Source of the DNA: an uncultured SAR116 cluster alpha proteobacterium
Lineage (GTDB): Bacteria; Pseudomonadota; Alphaproteobacteria; Puniceispirillales; Puniceispirillaceae
Assembly (NCBI GenBank): GCA_902583715.1
Contig: CACHXC010000003.1
Location: 1 to 64,000, forward strand
Direction: 5' to 3'
DNA: 64,000 bases
The notes below the pieces were generated by a model. The model had not been told where the DNA came from and did not search any database. It worked only from the letters and a program-made list of their open reading frames with translations. The position numbers and the translations under genes are program-made. Positions 17,875 through 47,002 of the stretch are shown piece by piece; position 1 is the stretch's first letter, and every line of letters starts with the position of its first letter.

Positions 17875-18017
17875 TACTGATGCCCCCCTCTCATAGCGTC
17901 TTGCTGAATTTTTCAATCATAAATTTACGTTGTTGGCTGTGATTTGTCATTGTAGATTATTGAGGCAATAATCCGTGCTTAAACTTTGTTAAATTTCCAT
18001 CAACGGAGTGTTTGATT

Positions 18018-20210
18018 ATGCCCTACAATAGCTACCGTGTTGATTTGATGGGTGCGGCAAAGCTGGAACCGTGTGGAACTGTTGAAGTTGACAGCTACCA
18101 GACATTTAAACTCACATACACCGCTGGGAAATTTGGCATTGATGATCAAGGTGGTCTCAAAATTGGTTTTCGTGGCCATTTTGATGGATCGCCCATTCAG
18201 TTTGAGGATCCGAAAGCACCGGGGTACACCACTGTTAAGGCGTCAAACGGGGCCAAGCTCGAAGTGTCATGGGAAACGCGCAGAAATATTCGGCCATGGA
18301 ACAAGTCGCTTTATGTCAGATGTTTAAGATTTTTATCTGAGGGTGATCAGATAGAAATTATTTTTGGTGATACTTCAAAAGGTGGGCCGGGGTGGTTGAT
18401 GCAAACATTTTGCGAGTCGGCTTTTACCTTTCAGATCACTGTTGATCCATTTGCAACACAAGATTTCATTGCTCTTAAAGACACTGATCACCCAACAATT
18501 AGTGTTGTGCCCACTCGGCCTGATCAATGGGTTGCTGTACTCCCCACATTGCGCCGGCCAGATGAACCATTTCGTTTATCTATCAAGTGCAATGATAAAT
18601 GGGGAAACCCATCAGATTTGGTTGACCAGACGGTCACATTAAAAGCTACGTCACCTGTCAAAAAATTACCTGAAACGGTAACTTTTAAAAATGGTGATTT
18701 TTGTAAAGTCATTGAAGGTCTCACTAGCAGTGAGTGTGATCATCTTGAAATTTATATTCTTAATGAAGACGGCGATGTTCTAACGAGTTCCAACACTCTG
18801 GTTATTCGTCCGTCTGAACGTCAGCATTTTTGGAGCGATATGCATGCGCAAAGTGGTGAGACAATTGGAGTTGGAACGGCAAGAGAGTATTTTGAATTTG
18901 CCCGCAACAAAGCGTTTGTTGATATAGCTGGTCACCAGGGGAATGATTTTCAGATAACGGATGCTTTTTGGGAACATCTGAATGAGCTTACAGCCGAATA
19001 TAACGAACCAAGCCGCTTTTTAACTATTCCAGGATATGAATGGTCGGGTAACACTGGTCTTGGCGGCGACCATAATGTTTGGTACCGCACTGAGGGTAGG
19101 CCCATTTATCGATCCAGCAGGGCACTGGTCGCAGACACAAGCATGCCAGAAAATGATGCCCACTCAGCAGTGGATATGATGACCAAACTCGAAAAAGAGG
19201 ATGCCATTGTAGTAGCTCATGTCGGTGGTCGATATGCGGATATAAAATACGCTCATGATGCTAAACTAGAACCCTCGGTTGAGGTGCATTCATCATGGGG
19301 AACTTTTGAGTGGATTTTAAATGATGCGTTTGACTGTGGTTATAAAATTGGCATTGTAGCATCAAGTGATGGTCACAAAGGGCGTCCTGGGTCAGAATTT
19401 CCGGGAAACAGCCAGTTTGGTTCATTTGGCGGTCTGACATGTCACCTTCTACCTGAACTAGACCGCGATCATTTCTTTTCTGCATTTAGAAGGAGGCAAC
19501 ATTACGCTACCACTGGTGCTCGTATTTTTATGGATGTAACTGCGCAGATCGACGAGACGGTGCATCAAATTGGTGAGATTACTCAAACCACATCTGACCA
19601 TGTCACATTGAATGTTGAAGTCATAGGCACGGCTCCATTGGAGCGTATCGATGTTTTTGATGGAAAAGATATAATTGAGACCATTCGTCCTTGGGACCTA
19701 TCCAATCAAATTGAACGATTGCGGATTACGTGTGCCGGCCAACATTATCGTGGGCGCGGTCGATTGGTCAAATGGGAAGTCGCGGCTCGGCTTGATGCTG
19801 GACAGATCAACAAATACAAGACCATAAATTTCTGGAATCCAAACAGACAGCCCAAACTCATCAGTGAGACCGAAATATCATGGGAAACTGTCACCACTGG
19901 TGGTGCGTCGGCAGTAGATTTGTGGCTGGATGGGTTTTCAGCTTCTGATAAGCTCTTCATTGAGACCAATCAGGGCAGCATGACAATAGATGCAAATAAA
20001 ATTGAAGTGGCTGGCGTCACCCAGGAATGTGGGGGGATGGACATACGACTGAACGTCCAGCAGTTGCCACAGAAGATGAGTGAGAAATATTTGTCTGTCA
20101 GCCGAGATCTGAAACTGACGCAAGGCACAGAAAGGCGCCTGTTTGTTCGAGTCACTCAGGAAGATGGGCATCAGGCGTGGACAAGCCCATTTTATATCTT
20201 ACGATCGTAA
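18018..20210 (+). CDS. Large PHP/DUF3604-like putative metal-dependent hydrolase
   Basis: A 730-residue protein. The N-terminal 270 residues look like beta-rich domains. A central part (about residues 275-520) resembles the DUF3604 branch of PHP metallo-hydrolases: FWSDMHAQSG replaces the usual GDLHNHSG, and AGHQGND, VVAHVGGRYAD and ASSDGHKGRPG supply further candidate metal-binding His/Asp residues. The C-terminal 200 residues are again beta-rich. The ATG at 18018 is used because GGAG lies 9 bases upstream; a TTG six bases earlier is too close to that site. It is divergent from the sulfatase and heads a run with the ThDP enzyme. The function is unknown; hydrolysis of an ester or phosphoester is only a guess. 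Confidence 0.7.
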   Translation: MPYNSYRVDLMGAAKLEPCGTVEVDSYQTFKLTYTAGKFGIDDQGGLKIGFRGHFDGSPIQFEDPKAPGYTTVKASNGAKLEVSWETRRNIRPWNKSLYVRCLRFLSEGDQIEIIFGDTSKGGPGWLMQTFCESAFTFQITVDPFATQDFIALKDTDHPTISVVPTRPDQWVAVLPTLRRPDEPFRLSIKCNDKWGNPSDLVDQTVTLKATSPVKKLPETVTFKNGDFCKVIEGLTSSECDHLEIYILNEDGDVLTSSNTLVIRPSERQHFWSDMHAQSGETIGVGTAREYFEFARNKAFVDIAGHQGNDFQITDAFWEHLNELTAEYNEPSRFLTIPGYEWSGNTGLGGDHNVWYRTEGRPIYRSSRALVADTSMPENDAHSAVDMMTKLEKEDAIVVAHVGGRYADIKYAHDAKLEPSVEVHSSWGTFEWILNDAFDCGYKIGIVASSDGHKGRPGSEFPGNSQFGSFGGLTCHLLPELDRDHFFSAFRRRQHYATTGARIFMDVTAQIDETVHQIGEITQTTSDHVTLNVEVIGTAPLERIDVFDGKDIIETIRPWDLSNQIERLRITCAGQHYRGRGRLVKWEVAARLDAGQINKYKTINFWNPNRQPKLISETEISWETVTTGGASAVDLWLDGFSASDKLFIETNQGSMTIDANKIEVAGVTQECGGMDIRLNVQQLPQKMSEKYLSVSRDLKLTQGTERRLFVRVTQEDGHQAWTSPFYILRS

Positions 20211-35606: not shown

Positions 35607-36743
35607 ATGAAATATAATACACCAATCTTAACGTCAAAATTGTCACGGCGCCGGGTGCTGGCCTATGGTGCGGCCACGGCATTGTCGACCCCTTTTATCT
35701 CGCGGGCTTGGGCAGCACCGGTTGAGATTAACATGTTGGCTTGGTACGGGCATGGTGAGCCAGATATCGTTGCTGAATTTGAAGCGGCCAATAATGTGAA
35801 ATTCAAGCCAAAATATTATGCTGGTGGTGATAATATGCTGGGTTTGATCGCGCAGTCACCGCCTGGCACATATGATGTGATTTTGTCTGATGGTGAATTT
35901 GTTCAACAGTTGAATGCAGCTGGGTATATCGAAGAACTCAACGCTGCTGATTATCCGTTTGATGACATGCTCTACAAGGATTTCCAACAATTTCCTGGAC
36001 ATTGGAAAGATGGCAAACTTTTTTCGATGATGGTGCGGTTTGGTCATCTTGGCGTCTCCTACAACAAGAATGCGATTTCAGCTGAAGAAGCCATGAGCTA
36101 TTCCTGTTTTTGGAAGCCGGAAGTCAAAGGCAAGGTTGGTCATTTTGACTGGCATTTACCAAGCCTAGGCATGATGAGTCTTTATGATGGCAATGGCGCA
36201 GGCTTGTGGGATCTTAACGACAGCCAGTGGGACAAGGTGCAAAAAACAACCTTATCACTGCGTCCGCAGGTTGGTGGATTCTTTGATTATGGTGGGACCT
36301 TTAACTCACTAAAAAATGGTGAAATGCAGGCTATGTGCGGCATTGGTGACTGGATCACTGGTGTGTTGGAAAAAGACGGCGCACCGGTTGGCTCTGTGGT
36401 GCCAAAAGAGGGTGGCATTCAGTGGACTGAGTCTTATTGTATTGGCAAAGGATCAGAAAAGGCCGATATTGTGAAGAAATTCATCCAATACATGTTGTCG
36501 CCAGAGGGCCAGGTCAAATCAGCCCAAATGGCTGCCTATCCGGGCTTTGCGATTACCAAATCAGGTCGCGCTAAGCTGATTGAGGTTGACCGCAAAGAAG
36601 CAGAACGCACAGGTCAGGTAGATGGCATGGCAAATGATCCGGTCACGCTGGTTAAGGAAGGCCGCATTCATTATCGCAATATTCCGGTTCAGCAAACACT
36701 TGAAGATTGGAACGATTTCTGGTCTGAATATAAAAACGCTTGA
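35607..36743 (+). CDS. Pot-type ABC transporter substrate-binding protein (Tat signal)
   Basis: A 378-residue extracellular binding protein of the spermidine/putrescine (PotD/F) class. The N-terminus has a twin-arginine signal (SRRRVLAYGAATAL, cleavage near ISRAWA at residue 36), so it is exported folded. The mature part begins VEINMLAWYGHGEPDIVAEFE. AGGAGA lies before the ATG. It heads the potB-potC-potA-like operon and is separated from the permease by a strong hairpin. Because the downstream genes handle nucleobases, a nucleobase, ureide or related N-compound may be the ligand rather than polyamine; that is inference. Confidence 0.87.
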   Translation: MKYNTPILTSKLSRRRVLAYGAATALSTPFISRAWAAPVEINMLAWYGHGEPDIVAEFEAANNVKFKPKYYAGGDNMLGLIAQSPPGTYDVILSDGEFVQQLNAAGYIEELNAADYPFDDMLYKDFQQFPGHWKDGKLFSMMVRFGHLGVSYNKNAISAEEAMSYSCFWKPEVKGKVGHFDWHLPSLGMMSLYDGNGAGLWDLNDSQWDKVQKTTLSLRPQVGGFFDYGGTFNSLKNGEMQAMCGIGDWITGVLEKDGAPVGSVVPKEGGIQWTESYCIGKGSEKADIVKKFIQYMLSPEGQVKSAQMAAYPGFAITKSGRAKLIEVDRKEAERTGQVDGMANDPVTLVKEGRIHYRNIPVQQTLEDWNDFWSEYKNA

Positions 36744-36764
36744 TCATCTTTGATCGCTAAAATT

Positions 36765-36788
36765 CAGGACAGGGCTATCCCTGTCCTG
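36765..36788 (+). terminator. Strong hairpin between binding-protein and permease genes
   Basis: A perfect 10-bp inverted repeat (CAGGACAGGG / CCCTGTCCTG) with a CTAT loop, 22 bases after the binding-protein stop and 43 before the permease start. There is no U-tract after it, so it is more likely a mRNA-stabilising or partial-termination hairpin that raises binding-protein yield. Confidence 0.7.
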
Positions 36789-36830
36789 CACAAATTAAAA
36801 AAGTCATCTGCCTCGGGATAACGGAAAATT

Positions 36831-37733
36831 ATGTCCGTCTCCAAACAACCAGCGAAAACGCCGTCATCAGACTCTAAATCGGCGCGGCAACGCCAAAAAT
36901 CAGATCTTTTTCAACAGGTGCTTCGTCTGCCAATTGTTATCTGGCAAAGTCTGTTTTTTATTGCCCCGTTGTTTTTCTTGGTGGCGATGTCGTTCTTTAT
37001 CGTTCGCAACTATCGTATGACCGAAGCGTTTGAGATGAAGAACTGGCTCAAGATGATGAGCCGTGATTATTTCTGGGACAGCTATGGATTGACCATCGGG
37101 CTGGCCACATTAGCCACGCTGGTGGTGATGATTGTGGCTTTCCCAGCCGCCTATACGCTTGCATTTCGGGTGTCGGAAAACACTCGCCGATGGGCTATTT
37201 TTCTGCTGATCATTCCGTTTTTTACAAGCTATCTTGTCCGCATATTTTCTTGGTATGTGATTTTGGCAGAAAGCGGCGTGATCAACGCGATGCTCGGTTA
37301 TATTGGGCTTGGCCCTTATATCATGTTGAACACCAAATTTGGCACCATCGTTGGCTATATGACGCTGACCCTGCCTCTGGTCATTATTTTGCAGACATTT
37401 TCGCTGGCGAATATAGACCGGCGGCTTGTCGAAGCGGCGTATAATCTTGGATGCCGGCCATGGCGCACGATTATCCGCGTGGTTCTACCCTTGGCTAAAA
37501 CTGGGTTTATTATTGCCGCGGTATTTTGTTTCATTTTGTCATTTGGTGATTTTGTTAGCCCCTATTACCTTGGCGGCTCAAAACCGCCAACCTTGCCGAT
37601 TCTGATTGTTGATACGGTCAAATCTGGTCAGCAATGGCCGCGCGCTGCAGTGGTTGCGGTGGTGATGATGGTCACCTTATTCATTGTTGCATTTGGCGGT
37701 ATCGCCGCGGCCTATCGGCGGAGGAACGCATGA
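36831..37733 (+). CDS. ABC transporter permease (PotB-like)
   Basis: A 300-residue inner-membrane permease with a polar 35-residue N-terminus and about six transmembrane helices. The EAA loop that contacts the ATPase reads EAAYNLGCRPWRTIIRVVLPL near residue 205. It overlaps the next permease gene by 4 bases (ATGA). It pairs with the PotC-like protein to form the channel of the Pot-type importer. Confidence 0.9.
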   Translation: MSVSKQPAKTPSSDSKSARQRQKSDLFQQVLRLPIVIWQSLFFIAPLFFLVAMSFFIVRNYRMTEAFEMKNWLKMMSRDYFWDSYGLTIGLATLATLVVMIVAFPAAYTLAFRVSENTRRWAIFLLIIPFFTSYLVRIFSWYVILAESGVINAMLGYIGLGPYIMLNTKFGTIVGYMTLTLPLVIILQTFSLANIDRRLVEAAYNLGCRPWRTIIRVVLPLAKTGFIIAAVFCFILSFGDFVSPYYLGGSKPPTLPILIVDTVKSGQQWPRAAVVAVVMMVTLFIVAFGGIAAAYRRRNA

Positions 37734-38536
37734 ACAGCGATCGTGTGCTGAAATGGTTTTTATATGGCTATTTAGCGCTTGTTTTGGTTTTTATTTTTGC
37801 GCCGATTATTTTCAGTGTCATTTTTTCCTTTAATTCCGATCGGTTTCCGACCATCCCGTTGGGCAGTTTTACGCTCAAATGGTACAAAACTATCTGGCAG
37901 GACCCGGATGTATGGGAAGCGGCAAGAACTAGCCTGATTGTCTCATTTTCAGTTGCATCAATCGCCACGCTCCTTGGGTTTGCGACCGCCTATACAGATT
38001 ACCGTTACCGGTTCAAACTAAAGCCGCTTTATCTGGCGTTGATCTTGTTGCCACCAACAATCCCGCTAATAATTTTGGCGCTGGCGATGCTGGCGTGGTT
38101 TGCCAAAATTGGCCTTGCTGGCAAGGTGATATCAATTATCGTTGCGCATAGTGTCCTGACAGCGCCTTTTGCCATGGCCATTATCCGGCTACGGCTAAGC
38201 CAGATGGATGCAAGCCTTGAGTCGGCGGCATGGAATCTAGGGGCAGATCAGTGGTGTGCGTTAAGACGGGTGATTGTTCCGTTTTGTCGGCCAGCGATTA
38301 TTTCATCATTTTGCCTGACAGCCGCAGTATCATTCGATGAATTTGCAATTGCCTGGTTCATATCTGGGTTGAATAAAACCATCCCAGTGATCATTCTTGA
38401 AATTGTAACAGGCAATATAGATCCACAGGTGAATGCAATTGGCAGTTTTGTATTTCTAACTTCGATAACACTGGTTGTGATTGCACAGGTCGTTTTGATG
38501 ACCAGAGATAAAAAAGAAAAGGTACATCATGGCTGA
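37730..38536 (+). CDS. ABC transporter permease (PotC-like)
   Basis: A 268-residue permease with about six transmembrane helices. The EAA loop is SAAWNLGADQWCALRRVIVP near residue 165. The ATG at 37730 lies just after GGAGGA and overlaps the PotB-like stop. A longer frame reaching 96 bases into potB is not the start. It overlaps the ATPase gene by 8 bases. Confidence 0.9.
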   Translation: MNSDRVLKWFLYGYLALVLVFIFAPIIFSVIFSFNSDRFPTIPLGSFTLKWYKTIWQDPDVWEAARTSLIVSFSVASIATLLGFATAYTDYRYRFKLKPLYLALILLPPTIPLIILALAMLAWFAKIGLAGKVISIIVAHSVLTAPFAMAIIRLRLSQMDASLESAAWNLGADQWCALRRVIVPFCRPAIISSFCLTAAVSFDEFAIAWFISGLNKTIPVIILEIVTGNIDPQVNAIGSFVFLTSITLVVIAQVVLMTRDKKEKVHHG

Positions 38537-39617
38537 TGCGTTGGTAGAATTTGACTCGGTGGTAAAGCGGTTCGGTGATTTCACCGCGGTGGAAACCATG
38601 AACTTTACCATTGATGAGGGTGAGTTCATTGCCATTATGGGGCCATCAGGTTGTGGCAAGACAACAACCTTGCGGATGCTTGCAGGGCTTGAAGCTCCAT
38701 CTGAAGGTGAAATCCGTATGCAAGGCCGCGTGATGAATAATGTGCCGCCACATGAGCGTGATACCCCTATGGTGTGGCAGTCATTGGCTCTGTTTCCCTT
38801 CTTAAACGCACGTGAAAATGTTGAGTTTGGACTTGAAATGCGGGGTGTTGATGTCGCAATCCGCAAAAAGAAAGCGCTTGAATGGCTTGACCGTTTGGAA
38901 ATTGGTGAATTTGCTGAGCGTGATATCAACAGCCTGTCAGGCGGACAAAAACAACGTGTTGCGCTTGCGCGCTCGCTGGTGACTGAACCGAAAATACTGC
39001 TTCTTGATGAACCGCTATCGGCACTTGATGCCAATCTTGTTATTCGTATGCAGTCAATGTTAACCCGGCTTCAGCGCGAGTTGGGAATCACATTTGTTTA
39101 TGTCACGCATTCTCAGTCTGAGGCCTTTGCTATGGCGGATCGGGTGGTGATCATGTCACGTGGTCATATTGCTCAGATTGGCATGCCAAAAGATATTTAT
39201 CGTGCGCCTGAGAATAGATTTGTGGCTGAATTTGTTGGCCGCAATAACATTATAAGTGGCACCGTCACATCAACTAGTAGCAAGGTGGTAACGATTGATG
39301 GAAACCTTGGTCAGTTCGAGGTGGCTCTTGCGGGTGATCACCAGCCGATTGTTGGTGATGTGGCCAGTTTTGTGATTGCCGCTGATCTCGTCCACTTGTC
39401 AACGACCAAGCCAAAAGCCACCAATAATATTGAGTGTTCGCTGATTTCTGAGGAGTTCATTGGCTCGGTGGTAACGTTGTTTCTCGAAACCCCGGACGGC
39501 AGTGAATTCAAAGTACAAATTCAAGAACGTGAGCTGTCTGATATGGATTTGAAACATATGGGCAGGGTGTTTGTGAGTTGGGAGTCAGATCGGGCGCATT
39601 TTCTTGGTGCAGGATAA
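38529..39617 (+). CDS. ABC transporter ATP-binding protein (PotA-like)
   Basis: A 362-residue ATPase. The Walker A GPSGCGKTT lies near residue 38, the signature LSGGQKQR near 137 and the Walker B ILLLDEP near 157 with the D-loop SALD. A switch His is in VTHSQ. The C-terminal 120 residues form the TOBE-type regulatory domain of the spermidine/putrescine and maltose subfamilies. It energises the Pot-type importer. The deacetylase gene follows, 16 bases after its stop. Confidence 0.93.
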   Translation: MADALVEFDSVVKRFGDFTAVETMNFTIDEGEFIAIMGPSGCGKTTTLRMLAGLEAPSEGEIRMQGRVMNNVPPHERDTPMVWQSLALFPFLNARENVEFGLEMRGVDVAIRKKKALEWLDRLEIGEFAERDINSLSGGQKQRVALARSLVTEPKILLLDEPLSALDANLVIRMQSMLTRLQRELGITFVYVTHSQSEAFAMADRVVIMSRGHIAQIGMPKDIYRAPENRFVAEFVGRNNIISGTVTSTSSKVVTIDGNLGQFEVALAGDHQPIVGDVASFVIAADLVHLSTTKPKATNNIECSLISEEFIGSVVTLFLETPDGSEFKVQIQERELSDMDLKHMGRVFVSWESDRAHFLGAG

Positions 39618-39633
39618 ACATAGAGGAAAAGAC

Positions 39634-40515
39634 ATGATCAGTAATCCCATTCCGTGGCCAAACGGTGCGCGCTGTGCTTGCGTAATTTCTTTTGACATGG
39701 ACGCAGACAGTCTCATTCATATTGCGCGTCCTGACGGCTCTCATGACAGATTGTATCCGATAAGCATGGGACGATATGGTCCTCAAGTTGCAGTGCCGCG
39801 TATTTTGGATACATATCGCCGACTTGGTATCAAGCAGTCGTTTTTCATCCCGGGCTGGTGTATTGAAACCTACCCGGATGCGATTGAGGCAATTTTGGCT
39901 GGCGGGCATGAAATTGGTCATCATGGCTATTTGCATGAAGACCCGATTGACTCGCCAGATCAACGTCGCTGGTTTGAGAAAGCGCTTGAGGCACACCGCA
40001 AATATTGTGGTGGGAACCCAGCCGGCTATCGCGCACCAGTGTATAATATCAATCAAGAAGTGGTAGACCTATTGATTGAACATGGGTTTCGTTATGACTC
40101 ATCAATGATGGCTGATGATATCCCGTATAGTTTGGAAACAGTGCATGGTAAATTATGGGAAATGCCGGTTCATTGGGGCACTGATGATTGGCCACCTTTC
40201 GCGCATTATGCCGAGATAGGCTACATGATGCCTGTGAAGGCACCATCAACAGGGCTGGCTTCATTCTGGGAAGAATTTGACGCGGCCTATGAGGCTGGTG
40301 GGTTTTTCATGCTGATCGTCCACCCTTTTCTAACTGGCCGGCTGGCCCGTTGGAGACAGGTTGAGGCGTGGCTAGAAGACACGTTGAATACAAAGGATGT
40401 TTGGTTTGCAAGACTTGATCAAATTGCTGATCATATGGACAATGTCGTGTCGTCGGGTGCTTATAAACCACGCTGTGAAAAATTGCCTTATTACACCGCA
40501 CCGGTGGGGCAATAA
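39634..40515 (+). CDS. Polysaccharide deacetylase-family protein (PuuE-like)
   Basis: A 293-residue carbohydrate esterase 4-type NodB-fold protein. The FDMDAD segment (near residue 21) and HEIGHHGYLHE (near 92) supply the usual Asp and His metal ligands; YRAPVYNIN is the following catalytic region. No signal peptide is seen. Cytoplasmic members of this branch include PuuE, a cofactor-independent allantoinase. Position between a Pot-type transporter and a cytosine deaminase/DUF1989 pair favours a ring-opening amidohydrolase role over chitin or peptidoglycan deacetylation. The ATG at 39634 follows AGAGGAAAA. Confidence 0.78.
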   Translation: MISNPIPWPNGARCACVISFDMDADSLIHIARPDGSHDRLYPISMGRYGPQVAVPRILDTYRRLGIKQSFFIPGWCIETYPDAIEAILAGGHEIGHHGYLHEDPIDSPDQRRWFEKALEAHRKYCGGNPAGYRAPVYNINQEVVDLLIEHGFRYDSSMMADDIPYSLETVHGKLWEMPVHWGTDDWPPFAHYAEIGYMMPVKAPSTGLASFWEEFDAAYEAGGFFMLIVHPFLTGRLARWRQVEAWLEDTLNTKDVWFARLDQIADHMDNVVSSGAYKPRCEKLPYYTAPVGQ

Positions 40516-40533: not shown

Positions 40534-40983
40534 ATGCTGACGGAAGTTGATAAACAGCTAATGAAGATTGCCTTTGATGAGGCGAAGTCTGGATTTGACT
40601 CTGGTGGCTGTCCTATTGGGTCGGTTCTTGCCCGCGGTGGAAGGGAGCTTTCCCGCGGTCACAACCAACGGGTTCAGCAGGGCGATCCGATTGCGCATGG
40701 CGAGATGGATGCGTTGCGCAAGGCTGGGCGGCAAAAAACCTATCGTGACACAGTGCTCTACACAACCTTGAGCCCATGTATGATGTGCAGTGGCACTATC
40801 GTTCAGTTTGGCATCCCCCGCGTTGTAATTGGTGAGAATAAGACCTTTGGTGGCAATGAGGCGTTTTTGCGTGAACATGGCGTTGAGGTGGTTATCGCTG
40901 ATGATCCTGCTTGTATCGCGTTGATGGAGCGCTTCATCCGGGAGAAGCCAGACCTCTGGGCTGAAGACATCGCTGAGGAGTGA
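40534..40983 (+). CDS. Cytosine deaminase-like protein, yeast Fcy1 type
   Basis: A 149-residue zinc deaminase of the CDA fold with H55-G-E57 (zinc His and catalytic Glu) and P81-C-M-M-C85 (zinc Cys pair). The stretch after it (GIPRVVIGENKTFGG) and the C-terminus (MERFIREKPDLWAEDI) resemble, from memory, fungal cytosine deaminase Fcy1, which closes its active site with a C-terminal segment ending in a Trp-x-Glu-Asp-Ile. Bacterial CodA is an unrelated TIM-barrel enzyme. Making uracil from cytosine would feed the URC genes downstream. Guanine deaminase is the main alternative. Confidence 0.8.
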   Translation: MLTEVDKQLMKIAFDEAKSGFDSGGCPIGSVLARGGRELSRGHNQRVQQGDPIAHGEMDALRKAGRQKTYRDTVLYTTLSPCMMCSGTIVQFGIPRVVIGENKTFGGNEAFLREHGVEVVIADDPACIALMERFIREKPDLWAEDIAEE

Positions 40984-40986
40984 AAC

Positions 40987-41673
40987 ATGACGCCGTTTGT
41001 TTATGAGCCAGCTGTATATGACGGCACCAATGCTAGCCTGACAAGCGCTGTATCCTCTGATGGTTGGCCTGAAATAGGTAAGCGTTATCGCATTCCACCT
41101 CGCTGTGGTGTAGCTGTCAGGTTGCATGAGGGACAGTTTTTGTCTGTGGAAAACACCCATGGGACGCAGGTTTGTGATTTTTGGGCCTATTTGGCTGCAG
41201 ATATGGGGCAGTTTCTCTCAATGTCGCATTGCCGAACTCGGTTGCAGTCGGTTTCGCCAAAAATTGGTGATGTCCTTGTCACGAACCTGCGGCAGCCACT
41301 TTTGGAAATCATAAACGATACATCTCCCGGTGTGCATGATACCGTGATGTCTTGTTGTGACTGGCCGCGATATCAGCTCCTGGGTTGCACCGATTATCAT
41401 GATAATTGTGCGGATAATCTGCGTATGGCATTGGCGGCCATTGGCTTGTCGGCACCTTTAGTGCCTGACCCTTTCAACCTGTGGATGAATATTCCTATCA
41501 CACAGGATGGTGCTACTTCTTTCCAGTCAACCGTATCATCAGCCGGTGACAGATTTGATATGCGGGCACTGGCAGATTGTATTGCGGTCATGTCGGCTTG
41601 CCCGCAAGATAAAAACCCGATTAATGGTGAAGATGCAATGCCCTCTGAGCTTCACTTCAGTGTCGGGACGTAA
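40987..41673 (+). CDS. DUF1989 / urea carboxylase-associated family protein
   Basis: A 228-residue protein of the DUF1989 family. GVAVRLHEGQFLSVENTHGTQVCDFWA (near residue 40-65) and the later CDWPRYQLLGCTDYHDNCADNL segment contain the conserved Cys/His/Asp residues. Members are found next to urea carboxylase genes, and their precise reaction is not settled. The start follows GAGGAG. It lies between the cytosine deaminase and the RutR-like regulator. Because the URC route is known to release urea, its presence here is biologically sensible. Confidence 0.82.
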   Translation: MTPFVYEPAVYDGTNASLTSAVSSDGWPEIGKRYRIPPRCGVAVRLHEGQFLSVENTHGTQVCDFWAYLAADMGQFLSMSHCRTRLQSVSPKIGDVLVTNLRQPLLEIINDTSPGVHDTVMSCCDWPRYQLLGCTDYHDNCADNLRMALAAIGLSAPLVPDPFNLWMNIPITQDGATSFQSTVSSAGDRFDMRALADCIAVMSACPQDKNPINGEDAMPSELHFSVGT

Positions 41674-41680
41674 CTGAGAG

Positions 41681-42313
41681 TTGCAGGGTTCCCCAGAAAT
41701 AAGCCGCAGCAAGATCCAAATCAAAAAAAGGGCTTTGATACTCAATGCTGCCGAGCGTGTTTTTGCACGTCATGGCTTTGCTGGCTCTCGTTTGATAGAG
41801 ATTTCAAAGGAGGCTGGGCTTCCAAAATCTAACATTCTTTATTATTTCAAAAGTAAAGAGGATATATACAGTTCCTTGTGCCAAGACATTTTAGAGAATT
41901 GGCTGGGAGCGATTGGTGATATCTCTGAAAATAGTGAGCCAAGTGATGCGCTGAAGAAATACATTGTGGCAAAAATGGAGCTTTCAAAGAAGCGGCCTTT
42001 CGCCTCAAAAGTGTTTGCTATGGAAATAATTTCTGGTGCACCAGTTATCGGAGATTATTTGGCTACTGAGCTGAGGTCATGGGTTGACAATCAGGCCAAG
42101 ATCTTCAGAGCTTGGCAGGAACGTGGTCACATTATAGATGTCTCACCATATCATGTTTTCTTTGTGATTTGGGCAGTCACTCAAACATATGCTGACTTTG
42201 AAACCCAAATTAAACTTGTTCTTGGGGATGGGCATTTAGGCTCTCGCGAATATGATAGGGCGGTAAAAGCTGTAACTGAGATAATTTTAAATGGGCTTAC
42301 CCCGCGTAAATGA
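41681..42313 (+). CDS. TetR-family regulator, RutR-like (TTG start)
   Basis: A 210-residue TetR-family repressor. The N-terminal helix-turn-helix (residues about 16-62) includes AERVFARHGFAGSRLIEISKEAGLPKSNILYYFKSKED. The C-terminal domain resembles the YcdC/RutR ligand domain, with ELSKKRPFASKVFAMEII and WAVTQTYADFETQI. RutR binds uracil or thymine and controls pyrimidine use. No ATG precedes the HTH, so a TTG 8 bases after the DUF1989 stop is taken as start. A perfect RutR-type operator lies 5 bases after its stop codon. Confidence 0.82.
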   Translation: MQGSPEISRSKIQIKKRALILNAAERVFARHGFAGSRLIEISKEAGLPKSNILYYFKSKEDIYSSLCQDILENWLGAIGDISENSEPSDALKKYIVAKMELSKKRPFASKVFAMEIISGAPVIGDYLATELRSWVDNQAKIFRAWQERGHIIDVSPYHVFFVIWAVTQTYADFETQIKLVLGDGHLGSREYDRAVKAVTEIILNGLTPRK

Positions 42314-42317
42314 AAAG

Positions 42318-42333
42318 TTGACCAAATGGTCAA
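42318..42333. promoter_or_regulatory. RutR-type operator palindrome
   Basis: The sequence TTGACCAAATGGTCAA is a perfect match to the RutR operator consensus TTGACCA-NN-TGGTCAA known from E. coli. It sits between the RutR-like gene and the urc1-like gene and overlaps the -35 element of the candidate URC promoter, a layout suited to repression relieved by uracil. Confidence 0.85.
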
Positions 42334-42347
42334 TTTTGCGTTAGCAT
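42318..42347 (+). promoter_or_regulatory. Candidate promoter of the URC operon
   Basis: TTGACC (42318-42323) can serve as -35 and TAGCAT (42342-42347, 18-base spacing) or TTAGCA (17-base spacing) as -10, some 33 bases before the urc1 start. The -35 is embedded in the RutR-type palindrome. Confidence 0.5.
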
Positions 42348-42379: not shown

Positions 42380-43627
42380 ATGTCTTCCTCGGGTCACATT
42401 GTACTTACATCTCATTCGAGACCAGGCTCTAATCATTTTTCACCCATTCATTGGGGAGCTGAAGACGCACGTGTCAGAGGTCCAATTATAGCGAGTGTAT
42501 CTACTCCGTCGCATCGTAATGTTATTGGCACACACTCAGGTAGTTACTCAGTTTATAGAGCTATTTCTGTTGCAGCAGGTCATCTCGACCCCTCTCATGT
42601 GCCGGATTTAACTAATACATCACCAGTGGCTGAAATTGGACCTCATAAGCAATGGTTTGATGCAAAAAAAATTGTCTCCTTCGATCCATGGGGTCACTTA
42701 GTGGTTGATGAATTTCAGGATCATCTCAAAGAAGGTTTTGACATCCGTCCAACCATTGCAATCACGCAAGCTAGGTTAAAGTTGATGGAAATGAAGGAGG
42801 CCATTGCGCAAGGTCGGCTAGAGCCAGACGGTGGTGTTTTGCTTGAAAACGGTGATGTGAATGTCACAAAAATTGCCATAGACCCGGTCTGGCATATCCC
42901 TGGATTAGCAGAGCGTTTTGGGGTAGATGAGCACGCGTTTCGTAGGGCTATTTTTGAACAAATGGGGGGTATGTACCCTGAACTTGTTACGCGCTCTGAT
43001 TTAGAGGTCTTTCTGCCACCAATAGGAGGCATAACCGCCTATGTTTTTGGTAATCCAGATAACTTAAGCAACCCAAAAGTGAAGCTAGCATGTAGGGTTC
43101 ATGACGAATGTAATGGTTCTGATGTGTTTGGTTCGGACATTTGCACATGCCGACCTTATTTAACTCACGGGATTGAGATCTGCATAGAAATGGCACAGCA
43201 AGGCGGCAATGGTCTTGTAGTTTACAACAGAAAAGAAGGGCGCGCGCTTGGCGAAGTGACTAAGTTCCTAGTTTATAACGCGCGCAAACGTCAAAAAGGT
43301 GGAGATTCAGCCGCTAAATATTTTGAGCGAACTGAGTGCGTTGCCGGAGTCCAGGATGCGAGGTTTCAAGAATTAATGCCGGACATTTTTCATTGGCTAG
43401 GCGTAACTCGGATAGACCGCTTCGCTTCTATGAGTGATATGAAACATGACTCTATAGTGAGCCAGGGTATTCAGATCAAAGAACGCATCGATATTCCAGA
43501 TGAGCTAATACCAGAAGACGCTCACGTGGAAATGGAAGCAAAAAAAGCTGCTGGGTATTTCACAAGCAAAACACCAAAATCTGAAGAAAATCTTGACTCA
43601 GTTGTTGGGCGGAAAATTAAAGAATGA
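42380..43627 (+). CDS. GTP cyclohydrolase II-like protein, Urc1 family (uracil catabolism)
   Basis: A 415-residue GTP cyclohydrolase II homologue of the Urc1 type. The zinc site is intact as C244-x10-C255-x-C257, followed by the YNRKEGRALGEVTK segment. The protein is twice the length of riboflavin-pathway RibA because of a long N-terminal extension that resembles the Urc1 protein of the yeast URC route, where it acts on a uracil-derived nucleotide. Downstream urc4 (4-base ATGA overlap) and uracil phosphoribosyltransferase complete the bacterial URC core, which supports this over RibA. The extension begins SSSGHIVLTSHSR. Confidence 0.86.
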   Translation: MSSSGHIVLTSHSRPGSNHFSPIHWGAEDARVRGPIIASVSTPSHRNVIGTHSGSYSVYRAISVAAGHLDPSHVPDLTNTSPVAEIGPHKQWFDAKKIVSFDPWGHLVVDEFQDHLKEGFDIRPTIAITQARLKLMEMKEAIAQGRLEPDGGVLLENGDVNVTKIAIDPVWHIPGLAERFGVDEHAFRRAIFEQMGGMYPELVTRSDLEVFLPPIGGITAYVFGNPDNLSNPKVKLACRVHDECNGSDVFGSDICTCRPYLTHGIEICIEMAQQGGNGLVVYNRKEGRALGEVTKFLVYNARKRQKGGDSAAKYFERTECVAGVQDARFQELMPDIFHWLGVTRIDRFASMSDMKHDSIVSQGIQIKERIDIPDELIPEDAHVEMEAKKAAGYFTSKTPKSEENLDSVVGRKIKE

Positions 43628-44865
43628 AGTCGAATGACGTCAACGTAATAGAAACACTGCTTACTCCAGAGGCTGTCCGACAACGTTGCTCTCAAGTTTT
43701 TGAGGCGGCTGAAGCAAACGGGTCAAAATATTTCCACATACACGATGAAAATTTTGACGCTGCTGTAGACCTCGTGGAACGTGAAATAATCGCAAATTAC
43801 CCCAATGGTAAAGTGCCATTTCACAGCAGGTGGCGGCATTTTGAATTTGATAATCAAAATTTTTGGAAGAAAGCTGCATTAAAGCTCACAAAAAAGTCAA
43901 AAAATGAAATTGCTCGCAGCCAGATAGATTTGGCCGTAATTTCTGTTCTTCTTGATGCAGGTGCCGGCACTAGCTGGCGTTACAAAGATCTACAAACTGG
44001 GCTTAAGTTTAGTCGATCTGAAGGTTTGGCTATTGCAAGCCTGCGTCTTTTTGAGAGTGGTGTGCTCAGTCAAAGTGGTTTAGATGACCCTCTAAGGGTG
44101 GATGCAGCCGCACTTCAAGCTTTGACTCCAGAAATATTAGCGATAGAGTTTCAAGTTAGCCCAAGTAATCAGCTACTCGGTCTGGAGGATCGAGCAATGT
44201 TGTTAAACCGCCTGGGGGAATCTCTCGTTAAGCAGAGACATATATTTGAGGCTGATGGTGCTTTTCGACCAGGTAATCTCTTTGATTATTTATCGCGAAG
44301 TCAGCCCACGGGTGTTTTGGAAGCGCGTGATATACTCATTGCAATCCTTGAGGGCATGGGTGAAATTTGGCCAGATGGTAGCTGGATTGAAAACATCCCG
44401 ATTGGAGACGCGGGCTATCACGAGGCTGTAAAAAGATCTGACATTACAGATGGAGTTGTGCCTTTCCATAAACTCTCCCAATGGATGTCATATTCATTAA
44501 TAGAACCCCTTCAAGAAGCTGGTCTCAAGCTCAAAAACCTTGATGCGTTGACTGGTCTCGCTGAATATCGTAACGGCGGATTATTCATAGATACTAAGAC
44601 AATTTCTTTGCGGGACAAAACCCAATTGGAAGTTGTTCATGATCCAAAAAGTCCATTGATAGTCGAGTGGCGAGCATTGACTGTTGTCTTTTTGGACAAG
44701 TTAGCTGAGAGAATTAGACGCCGTACAAACACTAATTCAGAGAGCATGCCTCTAGCGAGTATCCTGCAGGGTGGGACTTGGTCAGCTGGTCGACAGATTG
44801 CCCAGCAGCTTCGTGTTAATGGAAGTCCACCGCTGCTATTAAATAGTCGAGGCACGATTTTTTGA
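43624..44865 (+). CDS. URC4/DUF1688 family protein (uracil catabolism)
   Basis: A 413-residue protein of the URC4/urg3 (DUF1688) family. It starts with LLTPEAVRQRCSQVFEAAEANG and contains VPFHSRWRHFE near residue 61 and IGDAGYHEAVKRSDITDG near 262, then VPFHKLSQWMSYSLIEPLQEAG. Yeast Urc4 is genetically required for uracil use as nitrogen source, but its reaction is still unclear. It overlaps urc1 by 4 bases and is followed 33 bases later by the uracil phosphoribosyltransferase gene. Composition is AT-rich relative to the sox region. Confidence 0.87.
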   Translation: MKSNDVNVIETLLTPEAVRQRCSQVFEAAEANGSKYFHIHDENFDAAVDLVEREIIANYPNGKVPFHSRWRHFEFDNQNFWKKAALKLTKKSKNEIARSQIDLAVISVLLDAGAGTSWRYKDLQTGLKFSRSEGLAIASLRLFESGVLSQSGLDDPLRVDAAALQALTPEILAIEFQVSPSNQLLGLEDRAMLLNRLGESLVKQRHIFEADGAFRPGNLFDYLSRSQPTGVLEARDILIAILEGMGEIWPDGSWIENIPIGDAGYHEAVKRSDITDGVVPFHKLSQWMSYSLIEPLQEAGLKLKNLDALTGLAEYRNGGLFIDTKTISLRDKTQLEVVHDPKSPLIVEWRALTVVFLDKLAERIRRRTNTNSESMPLASILQGGTWSAGRQIAQQLRVNGSPPLLLNSRGTIF

Positions 44866-44898
44866 TAATCTTGCAACTTACAATTTGGGGAACAAAAT

Positions 44899-45534
44899 AT
44901 GGCTCATAAAAACACAACAGTTGTTGGCCATCCGCTGGTGCAACATAAACTGTCAATTATGCGTGATATATCCACACCAACTGCAAAGTTTAGGCAGCTA
45001 TTGCGTGAAATCAGCCTGCTTCTAGCCTATGAAGTATGCAGTGATTTGGAAACAGAGCAAGTTGATATTAAAACCCCACTAGAAACTGCAAAAATGCCAA
45101 AACTTGAGGGAAAAAAACTATGCTTTATATCTATCCTGCGGGCAGGGAATGGTCTTCTAGATGGGATGCTTGATCTTGTGCCATCAGCCCGAGTTGGACA
45201 CGTCGGTTTATATCGTGACCCAAAAACATTGATACCTATTGAATATTATTTGAAATTGCCTGACCAGCTTGAAGAACGTTTGAGCATAGTAGTCGATCCG
45301 ATGCTTGCTACAGGAAACTCTGCGGCAGCGGCTGTGCAACGCATAAAGGATGCTGGTGCTAAACGCATAAAATTTGTTTGTTTGCTTGCTGCGCCTGAGG
45401 GTCTGGAAGCCTTTTCTGAGCAACATCCTGATGTGCCTATAATTACTGCTGCTGTTGATCGGGAACTGAACGATCACGCCTATATTTTGCCAGGCCTTGG
45501 TGATGCAGGCGACCGCATGTACGGCACGAAATAA
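44899..45534 (+). CDS. upp: Uracil phosphoribosyltransferase
   Basis: A 211-residue uracil PRTase making UMP from uracil and PRPP. The PRPP-binding loop is [12 protein letters not shown] near residue 130, with the upstream [30 protein letters not shown] segment and the uracil-binding C-terminal region ending [12 protein letters not shown]. In the URC pathway this step (Urc6 in yeast) activates uracil, so here it probably serves catabolism as well as salvage. GGGGAA precedes the ATG. Confidence 0.93.
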
Positions 45535-45652
45535 TTAGATGCCGCCCTGAGGGCAAATATTAAAAACAAATGCCGCAGACAGTCGCTTCATTTCATGGAT
45601 TTTTTTGGGGCAACAAGCTACTGTTCCTTTCAAACTCTTTGGAGAGATAATC

Positions 45653-47002
45653 ATGGAATGTTGTGGTCCAGGTTACGCAAGCCCGCAAGATGCCATTTTG
45701 GCGCCTCGTGAAAAGCTACTCTACACGATCGCGATTTATACTGGCACCGGTATCCAAAAGCCTGATTATCTTGCCACGATTGATGCAGATCCAGAAAGCC
45801 CGACTTACTCAAAAGTTATTCACCGGCTAAATATGCCAGGAATTGGCGATGAGTTGCATCACATGGGCTGGAACGCCTGCTCATCATGCCACGATGATGC
45901 TAGCATGTCGCGCAAATATCTGATTTTGCCAGGGGTCCGATCAAATAATCTGCACATTGTCGATACCGCCACCGACCCGCGTGCTCCCAAGCTGCATAAG
46001 GTGATTGATGGGAATGATATCAAGGCCAAGGCAGACCTGTCAGGTCCGCACACGGTGCATTGTCTGGGTAACGAAATTATAATTTCGTTCCTAGGAAATG
46101 CGCGTGGTGAAGCGCCGGGTGGCTATCTTCATATGAATAAGGATTTTGAAATTATTGGCCGCTGGGAAAATTCAATGGGCCAGATCAAGTTTGGCTATGA
46201 TTTTTGGTATCAGCCGCGCCACAATGTGATGGTCTCATCAGAGTGGGCGGCTCCGAATACATTTATGCCAGGATTTGACCTTGAGGAGGTTGGTCATCTC
46301 AAATATGGGCGTGAATTGCACTTCTGGGATTTTGAAAAGCGGCAGCCAATTGAGTCTATTTATCTTGGTGAGGATGGGCTTATACCTCTGGAAGTGAAAT
46401 TCCATCACGATCCAAATAGCACGCATGGTTTTTGTGGCGCTGCACTCAGCACTAACGTGATCCACTGGTGGCGTAATGATGCTGGCAAGTGGCAATGGGA
46501 AAAGATTATCGATGTGGAAAATCAACCTCACCCAGACTGGCCGATCCCAGTCCCTGGGGTGATGTCGGCTATTTTGGTATCGATGGATGATAAATATCTC
46601 TACCTGAATAACTGGCTGCATGGCGATATGCGGCAATATGACATTTCTGACCCACATAATCCAAAAATGACTGGGCAGGTCTGGATGGGGGGTCTGCTTG
46701 GCAAAGCCCCAATGGTCAATGGTGTAGAAATGGCAGGCGGACCCCAAATGTTTCAGCTCAGTCTTGATGGTAAGCGGCTGTACGTTACTACGTCGCTTTT
46801 CAGCACCTGGGATAATCAATTTTACCCAGAGATTAGACAAAAAGGAGGGGTTATGGTGATGATTGACTGCGATCCAATTAATGGTGGCATGTCAATCAAC
46901 CCAGACTTTATGGTGAACTTTGGTAATGAACCAAACGGGCCGTCGCGCTGTCATGAGATGCGCTACCCAGGTGGTGATTGCACAAGCGATATCTGGCTGT
47001 GA
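45653..47002 (+). CDS. Selenium-binding protein SBP56 family (methanethiol oxidase family)
   Basis: A 449-residue SBP56-family beta-propeller. CCGPGYASPQDA at the N-terminus, WNACSSCHDDAS near residue 85, SGPHTVHCLG near 134, FHHDPNSTHGFCGAAL near 254 and YLNNWLHGDMRQYD near 322 are family segments carrying the conserved Cys and His residues. Bacterial members include the copper-dependent methanethiol oxidase MtoX, which yields formaldehyde, H2S and H2O2. Unlike MtoX of Hyphomicrobium there is no signal peptide from the chosen ATG (GGAGAG upstream), and the usual SCO1/MauG partners are absent. Instead a ferredoxin, CoA-binding protein and rhodanese follow. Confidence 0.87.
   Translation: MECCGPGYASPQDAILAPREKLLYTIAIYTGTGIQKPDYLATIDADPESPTYSKVIHRLNMPGIGDELHHMGWNACSSCHDDASMSRKYLILPGVRSNNLHIVDTATDPRAPKLHKVIDGNDIKAKADLSGPHTVHCLGNEIIISFLGNARGEAPGGYLHMNKDFEIIGRWENSMGQIKFGYDFWYQPRHNVMVSSEWAAPNTFMPGFDLEEVGHLKYGRELHFWDFEKRQPIESIYLGEDGLIPLEVKFHHDPNSTHGFCGAALSTNVIHWWRNDAGKWQWEKIIDVENQPHPDWPIPVPGVMSAILVSMDDKYLYLNNWLHGDMRQYDISDPHNPKMTGQVWMGGLLGKAPMVNGVEMAGGPQMFQLSLDGKRLYVTTSLFSTWDNQFYPEIRQKGGVMVMIDCDPINGGMSINPDFMVNFGNEPNGPSRCHEMRYPGGDCTSDIWL

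Follow-up and report, generated by a model that had tools for sequence, protein, structure and literature searches.

A palindrome of the RutR type, TTGACCAAATGGTCAA, is read exactly at positions 42318-42333 of the window, the whole stretch of 64,000 nucleotides of SAR116 DNA analysed here. Sequence comparison makes it very probable that the neighbouring TetR repressor, of the RutR/PydR type, has this box as its operator and thereby controls urc1-urc4-upp, an operon for uracil catabolism by the URC route.

A putative RutR-type operator in front of a URC operon

An earlier, sequence-only reading of the window had described a perfect palindrome lying five bases after a RutR-like TetR gene and overlapping the −35 element of a promoter for urc1-urc4-upp. 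The palindrome is exact in the sequence, where "perfect" refers to the consensus given in that reading, TTGACCA-NN-TGGTCAA, from which the sites of E. coli itself deviate (carAB by one mismatch, rut by three). The stop codon of tetR ends at 42313, so that four bases, rather than five, separate the gene from the box. Pfam and NCBIfam profiles confirm the identities of the three downstream genes, present together at 42380-45534, and the regulator does carry the YcdC/RutR C-terminal domain, though it scores below both NCBIfam RutR cut-offs (see below). The overlap with the promoter is also borne out, in that the first six bases of the box supply the −35 element of a sigma70-like pair, the only promoter-like pair detected between tetR and urc1 (Table 1).

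Table 1 Features of the locus (window coordinates)
Feature	Position	Strand	Basis
ABC importer (binding protein, two permeases, ATPase), polyamine/2-aminoethylphosphonate-like	35607..39617	+	profiles; order kept in relatives as far as contigs reach
PuuE-like polysaccharide-deacetylase-fold hydrolase	39604..40515	+	PF01522; TIGR03212 60 bits, below cut-off
Cytosine deaminase, yeast Fcy1 type	40534..40983	+	yeast cytosine deaminase 8.8e-41 vs tRNA adenosine deaminases 6.6e-17 (solved structures)
DUF1989 (urea-amidolyase-associated type) protein	40987..41673	+	PF09347 152 bits; TIGR03424 95 bits, below cut-off
tetR, RutR-like TetR repressor gene	41681..42313	+	TetR_C_3 163.7 bits; best solved relative E. 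coli RutR 3.5e-43
RutR/PydR-type operator TTGACCAAATGGTCAA (predicted)	42318..42333	.	exact match, matrix score, most conserved tetR-urc1 block
Promoter-like pair (predicted): −35 TTGACC, 18-base spacer, −10 TAGCAT	42318..42347	+	9/12 consensus matches
urc1, GTP cyclohydrolase II-like uracil-catabolism protein	42380..43627	+	PF12471 (GTP_CH_N) + PF00925 (GTP_cyclohydro2); NF005536 739.7 bits, cut-off 403
urc4, DUF1688	43624..44865	+	PF07958 455 bits; overlaps urc1 end by 4 bases
upp, uracil phosphoribosyltransferase (URC6 role)	44899..45534	+	TIGR01091 270.6 bits, cut-off 208

With up to three mismatches allowed, the window holds 12 matches to the box against 4.19 (sd 1.79) expected; the one at 42318-42333 is the sole match without mismatch and also the sole perfect copy in the assembly G000, whose 51 contigs total 1.49 Mb at 59.8% completeness. 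When the 200 bases before urc1 were shuffled, none of 3000 versions reached the score of the box under a matrix trained on other loci. Two further candidates were set aside: the second-best match in the window (18622-18637, two mismatches, 17.8 bits) lies within an ORF (18012-20210) and is probably due to chance, and a terminator-like match at 42318-42333 is simply the palindrome read as a stem.

The arrangement could also be read as that of an operator that mainly tunes tetR and the run of genes upstream of it, or blocks read-through as a roadblock, with no separate urc promoter. The co-direction of tetR and urc1 across a short gap would suit this, as would the mere 7 bases between the end of the DUF1989 gene and tetR, but the box lies after tetR and overlaps the promoter-like pair, and in the Azoarcus-type loci described below it tracks urc1 while the regulator gene sits far downstream, after upp. 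We regard such a role as very unlikely and retain the assignment of the box to a urc promoter. Since tetR is the last gene of the upstream run, read-through could nevertheless bypass this promoter. The weight matrix found no box before that run (best score −2.1 bits, before 35607), and the transport and deaminase genes may thus not share control by the box.

The upstream gene order is preserved in SAR116 relatives. The deaminase probably turns cytosine into uracil, judging from its homology, and would thereby feed URC; the substrates of the importer are perhaps pyrimidines. Fcy1-type deaminase genes are also found near URC in more distant genomes (L101:3242-3688 and L067:1495-1935, 64-71% identity), and DUF1989 genes near URC in three loci of a distant alphaproteobacterial family (L041, L050 and L066 of f114, 43-44% identity). 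On the other side of the operon, an SBP56 gene (selenium-binding / methanethiol-oxidase-like, 45605-47002, 683 bits) lies directly 3′ of upp. Among 80 named loci, the best matches of the window urc1 are L068 and L069, both from SAR116 single-cell genomes, in line with a position of the window within the SAR116 cluster.

The regulator retains the uracil pocket of RutR

The start of tetR is uncertain: a TTG codon is listed, and residue 9 is the first that is homologous to E. coli RutR. The protein is 36% identical to E. coli RutR and matches TetR_N (44.4 bits) and TetR_C_3 above the Pfam cut-offs. It remains under the NCBIfam RutR cut-offs of TIGR03613 (186.3 against 368 bits) and NF011584 (169.1 against 230 bits), as do the Pyd-linked regulator of L180 and the URC-linked regulators of L068 and L079, and we therefore class it as RutR-like and not as RutR.

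In E. coli RutR, uracil is contacted by W77, W167, Q171, Y97 through a water molecule, and Q179 of the partner subunit, and K52 lies in the DNA-reading helix (PMC10891134). The window regulator has W74, W164, Q168, Y94 and Q176 at the five contact positions and K49 for K52, and all six residues are identical in each of the 13 URC regulators. Uracil (or thymine) is taken as the signal because the same pocket occurs in Rut, Pyd and URC regulators. A different ligand, such as a URC intermediate (for example ribosylurea), UMP, urea or cytosine, could in principle be sensed by a protein that still binds the box, and the URC regulators of SAR116 stand on a long stem branch, of 0.70 changes per column, which leaves room for such a drift. 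The five contact residues are nevertheless unchanged and the same as in Rut- and Pyd-linked regulators, whose only common signal is uracil/thymine, which makes another ligand quite unlikely. We predict that the window regulator binds a palindrome of the TTGACCANNTGGTCAA type and leaves it when uracil or thymine is present.

The palindrome follows the regulator gene and not the enzymes

URC loci were drawn from the 38 of 385 alphaproteobacterial genomes that have urc4, from the 80 named loci and from 8 of 81 genomes of the Azoarcus sp. L1K30 family (above cut-off). To score them, we used a weight matrix made from 33 boxes beside Pyd-cluster RutR-like genes, with zero URC sequence. Each training box was the best site that had no more than three mismatches and lay at most 400 bases from a RutR-like gene accompanied by Pyd genes in its locus; as loci lacking such a site contributed none, the matrix is biased towards the consensus. 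In the 200 bases before urc1, the 13 loci with a regulator score between 18.2 and 25.9 bits, and the 99 without one reach at most 12.6 bits, with a median of −9.0. A rank test gives p 2.6e-9, a value that overstates the evidence since related loci are not independent and the Azoarcus-group boxes were already known when the matrix was constructed; the complete separation of the two sets of scores holds independently of it. The 112 loci include near-copies (many from Reyranella; L033 and L130 stem from the same genome), and, as flank lengths vary and some contigs end early, "no regulator" denotes none in the available DNA around the locus. An HMM search detected no further RutR-like genes in the URC loci.

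Conservation of the palindrome before urc1, the check proposed in the sequence-only reading, thus takes a conditional form: the box is kept at 13 of 13 loci that have a RutR-like gene and lost in the 99 that do not, so that it tracks the regulator and not the enzymes. An exact palindrome kept across all URC operons was rejected, as 99 of the 112 loci have no good box and, among the 38 alphaproteobacterial urc4 genomes, only G000 has a perfect copy at any position in the genome. TetR_C_3 is found in four of these 38 (G000, G303, G087 and G122), and beside URC only in G000 and G303. Most of the URC operons scored, 99/112, manage without a RutR-like regulator. In six such loci (the neighbours of L071, L082, L123 and L041, and parts of those of L047 and L074), the genes scanned include no TetR, and no transcription factor lies immediately beside urc; L082 has a response regulator about 5 kb upstream of urc.

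These data also bear on a chance palindrome, or a site of an unrelated factor. Copies with a single mismatch are common (46 of 61 SAR116-family genomes), and a perfect one occurs inside an ORF of a SAR116 genome that lacks RutR (G385); the perfect palindromes of G402 lie at contig ends. The position of the window box, its conservation in five genomes, its matrix score and its dependence on the regulator gene stand against chance, to which we give next to no weight, and we keep to the reading of the box as an operator.

Azoarcus-type loci share the sensor and box but not the predicted promoter

A RutR-like gene directly follows upp in 8 of the 10 Azoarcus-type loci examined, and all eight carry a YTGACCA-NN-YRGTCAG palindrome 26-44 bases before urc1. 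Of the remaining two, L234 has neither regulator nor box, and no regulator gene was found elsewhere in its genome; L080, from the MAG G442, has a weak box before urc1 and no TetR_C_3 gene found in its genome. The only perfect TGACCANNTGGTCA core of G442 is on another contig (L191:8618-8633).

All ten loci (L079, L080, L089, L091 and L233-L238) have a sigma54-like element TGGCAYG-N4-TNGC, a putative sigma54 promoter, 51-94 bases before urc1. The window lacks it, as do the 4 other SAR116 loci and all 97 further loci scanned. The element suggests that URC of the Azoarcus type is under nitrogen control, and the position of the box just downstream of it suggests repression of a nitrogen-controlled promoter. 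The predicted promoter type differs between the SAR116 and Azoarcus-type loci, while sensor and box are the same.

SAR116 relatives and descent of the regulator

Among 61 SAR116-family genomes, urc4 is found in 4 and a TetR_C_3 gene in 18. Five of the latter belong to the genus of the window (G000, G303, G399, G400 and G408), and in all five the order is tetR, box (0-1 mismatch) and urc1; G400 has no urc4 because its contig (L170) ends inside urc1. An alignment of the tetR-urc1 intergenic region from these genomes shows the box as the most conserved block, with 13 of its 14 fixed positions invariant. Outside this genus, a regulator gene occurs in 13 genomes from two sister genera, 4 of them in g278 and 9 in g282. 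Their regulator lies within a reductive Pyd cluster, as PreA and dihydropyrimidinase models confirm in L180, and a variant box with two mismatches is present upstream in 13/13; in G438, a short stretch, only an aminotransferase gene is visible beside the regulator. The preA gene is found in 10 of the 61 genomes, and by profile search in none of the 16 genomes of the window's genus; RutA scores above cut-off in none of the 61. For both absences, G000 counts as a genome that is only 60% complete.

A tree of 85 regulators unites the five URC proteins from SAR116 (100/100) and, in a second clade, the eight from the Azoarcus group (99/95). Both clades fall in a half of the tree whose other members are Pyd-linked or unassigned alphaproteobacterial regulators; the opposite half contains E. 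coli RutR as well as the Pyd regulators of SAR116. The split has support of 97/94, rising to 100/100 in a tree of 77 rows from which 8, most of them long-branched, were dropped. Descent of the URC regulator of SAR116 from the Pyd regulator found in other SAR116 genera was rejected (AU p 8.3e-5). Forcing both URC groups into a single clade costs 18-20 log units and is disfavoured, but not rejected, with AU p 0.0668 (85 rows) and 0.0517 (77 rows). In the Urc1 tree, 4 SAR116 rows lie inside a 99% clade together with 6 regulator-less rows, and the 10 Azoarcus-group rows lie in a separate 100% clade. On these trees two captures by URC are favoured, and one is possible.

Given this placement of the URC regulators among Pyd-linked ones, their proximate source was probably a Pyd regulator. 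This qualifies the proposal of the sequence-only reading that the regulator moved between uracil pathways: a move fits the trees, but the likelier source is Pyd, to which most of the regulator-bearing relatives are wired, and not the enterobacterial Rut system. Its companion proposal, that the same sensor and box are wired to URC, agrees with the box at 13/13 regulator-bearing loci and the retained contact residues, and extends to the Azoarcus-type loci, which share this wiring.

Tandem pairs of RutR-like genes occur in L256, L260, L274, L282 and L286, with the copies falling in different halves of the tree; four pairs adjoin Pyd genes, and L274 is a short contig showing only an aminotransferase gene. 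In two other alphaproteobacterial loci, L289 and L266, upp is close to Pyd-linked RutR genes and may be under RutR control there as well.

Proposed mechanism

Based on the above data, we propose the following cycle for the window operon. The ligand-free dimer would sit on the palindrome that contains the −35 element and so exclude RNA polymerase. As uracil rises, by uptake or from cytosine through the Fcy1-type deaminase, it would be held between W74 and W164, with Q168, Y94 and Q176 of the partner subunit completing the pocket. The uracil-bound dimer would then leave the DNA, allowing transcription of the presumed operon. Upp would convert uracil to UMP, which Urc1 and Urc4 could open and strip to urea. 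Lastly, the fall in uracil would restore repression.

Discussion

Control of the Rut operon and of carAB by RutR is classical. The window regulator has in common with E. coli RutR the TetR_C_3 ligand domain, the W77/Y97/W167/Q171/Q179 pocket and a 16-bp palindrome (carAB site TTGACCATTTGGTCCA). It differs in its target, which is URC and not Rut, in its gene, which is upstream and co-directional where that of E. coli is divergent, and in sequence, being only 36% identical and separated from it by the basal split of the tree into halves (100/100).

Another known case is PydR of P. putida, a RutR-like protein that represses dihydropyrimidine dehydrogenase according to the title of a 2012 paper cited in PMC7332683. 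Both would be RutR-like repressors acting on a uracil pathway other than Rut, the reductive Pyd pathway in the case of PydR; the likeness is one of description and not of PydR sequence. The RutR proteins of alphaproteobacterial Pyd clusters (g278, g282 and other orders) share family, box type and pocket residues with the window regulator, but their neighbours are preT, preA, ureidopropionase and dihydropyrimidinase, and those of the window urc1, urc4 and upp.

The fungal URC regulator, URC2, is a zinc-cluster factor and is unrelated to the window TetR. The enzymes themselves are the same trio as in Lachancea kluyveri, which has URC1, URC4 and a URC6-type phosphoribosyltransferase, with urea as product (PMC7530994); in the window they form a bacterial operon with a TetR repressor, accompanied by an Fcy1-type cytosine deaminase. 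For bacteria, Leyn et al. 2016 (PMC5343134) treat RutR as a regulator of pyrimidine catabolism across 13 taxa (68 genomes); its distribution is mosaic, and its motif changes from taxon to taxon. Uracil and urc are not mentioned in the main text of that study, and the target lists of the supplement or of RegPrecise might include URC genes. We found no paper in open-licence PMC that brings RutR, uracil and URC together, a search to which the same target lists could hold an exception. RutR on Rut and RutR-like PydR on Pyd are thus already known, and RutR-like control of URC, as predicted here, appears new.

We lean towards a view in which one uracil-sensing module, made of the pocket and the TTGACCA-NN-TGGTCAA box, has been captured by all three of the non-homologous bacterial pathways, Rut, Pyd and URC, with no fewer than two captures on the part of URC. 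In a SAR116 genus the box would then have come to lie on a sigma70-like −35 element, and in Azoarcus-type bacteria immediately downstream of a sigma54-like promoter. The input would have stayed fixed while the chemistry was swapped. This would provide a testable case of a metabolite sensor that is kept while unrelated enzymes replace the whole pathway beneath it. The poorly studied bacterial URC operon is hereby tied to a predicted uracil signal and offers what is predicted to be a built-in uracil-responsive promoter, and the locus suggests that the upstream importer and the Fcy1-type deaminase supply that signal. Within the SAR116 family, one regulator family and box type would serve Pyd in some genera and URC in another.
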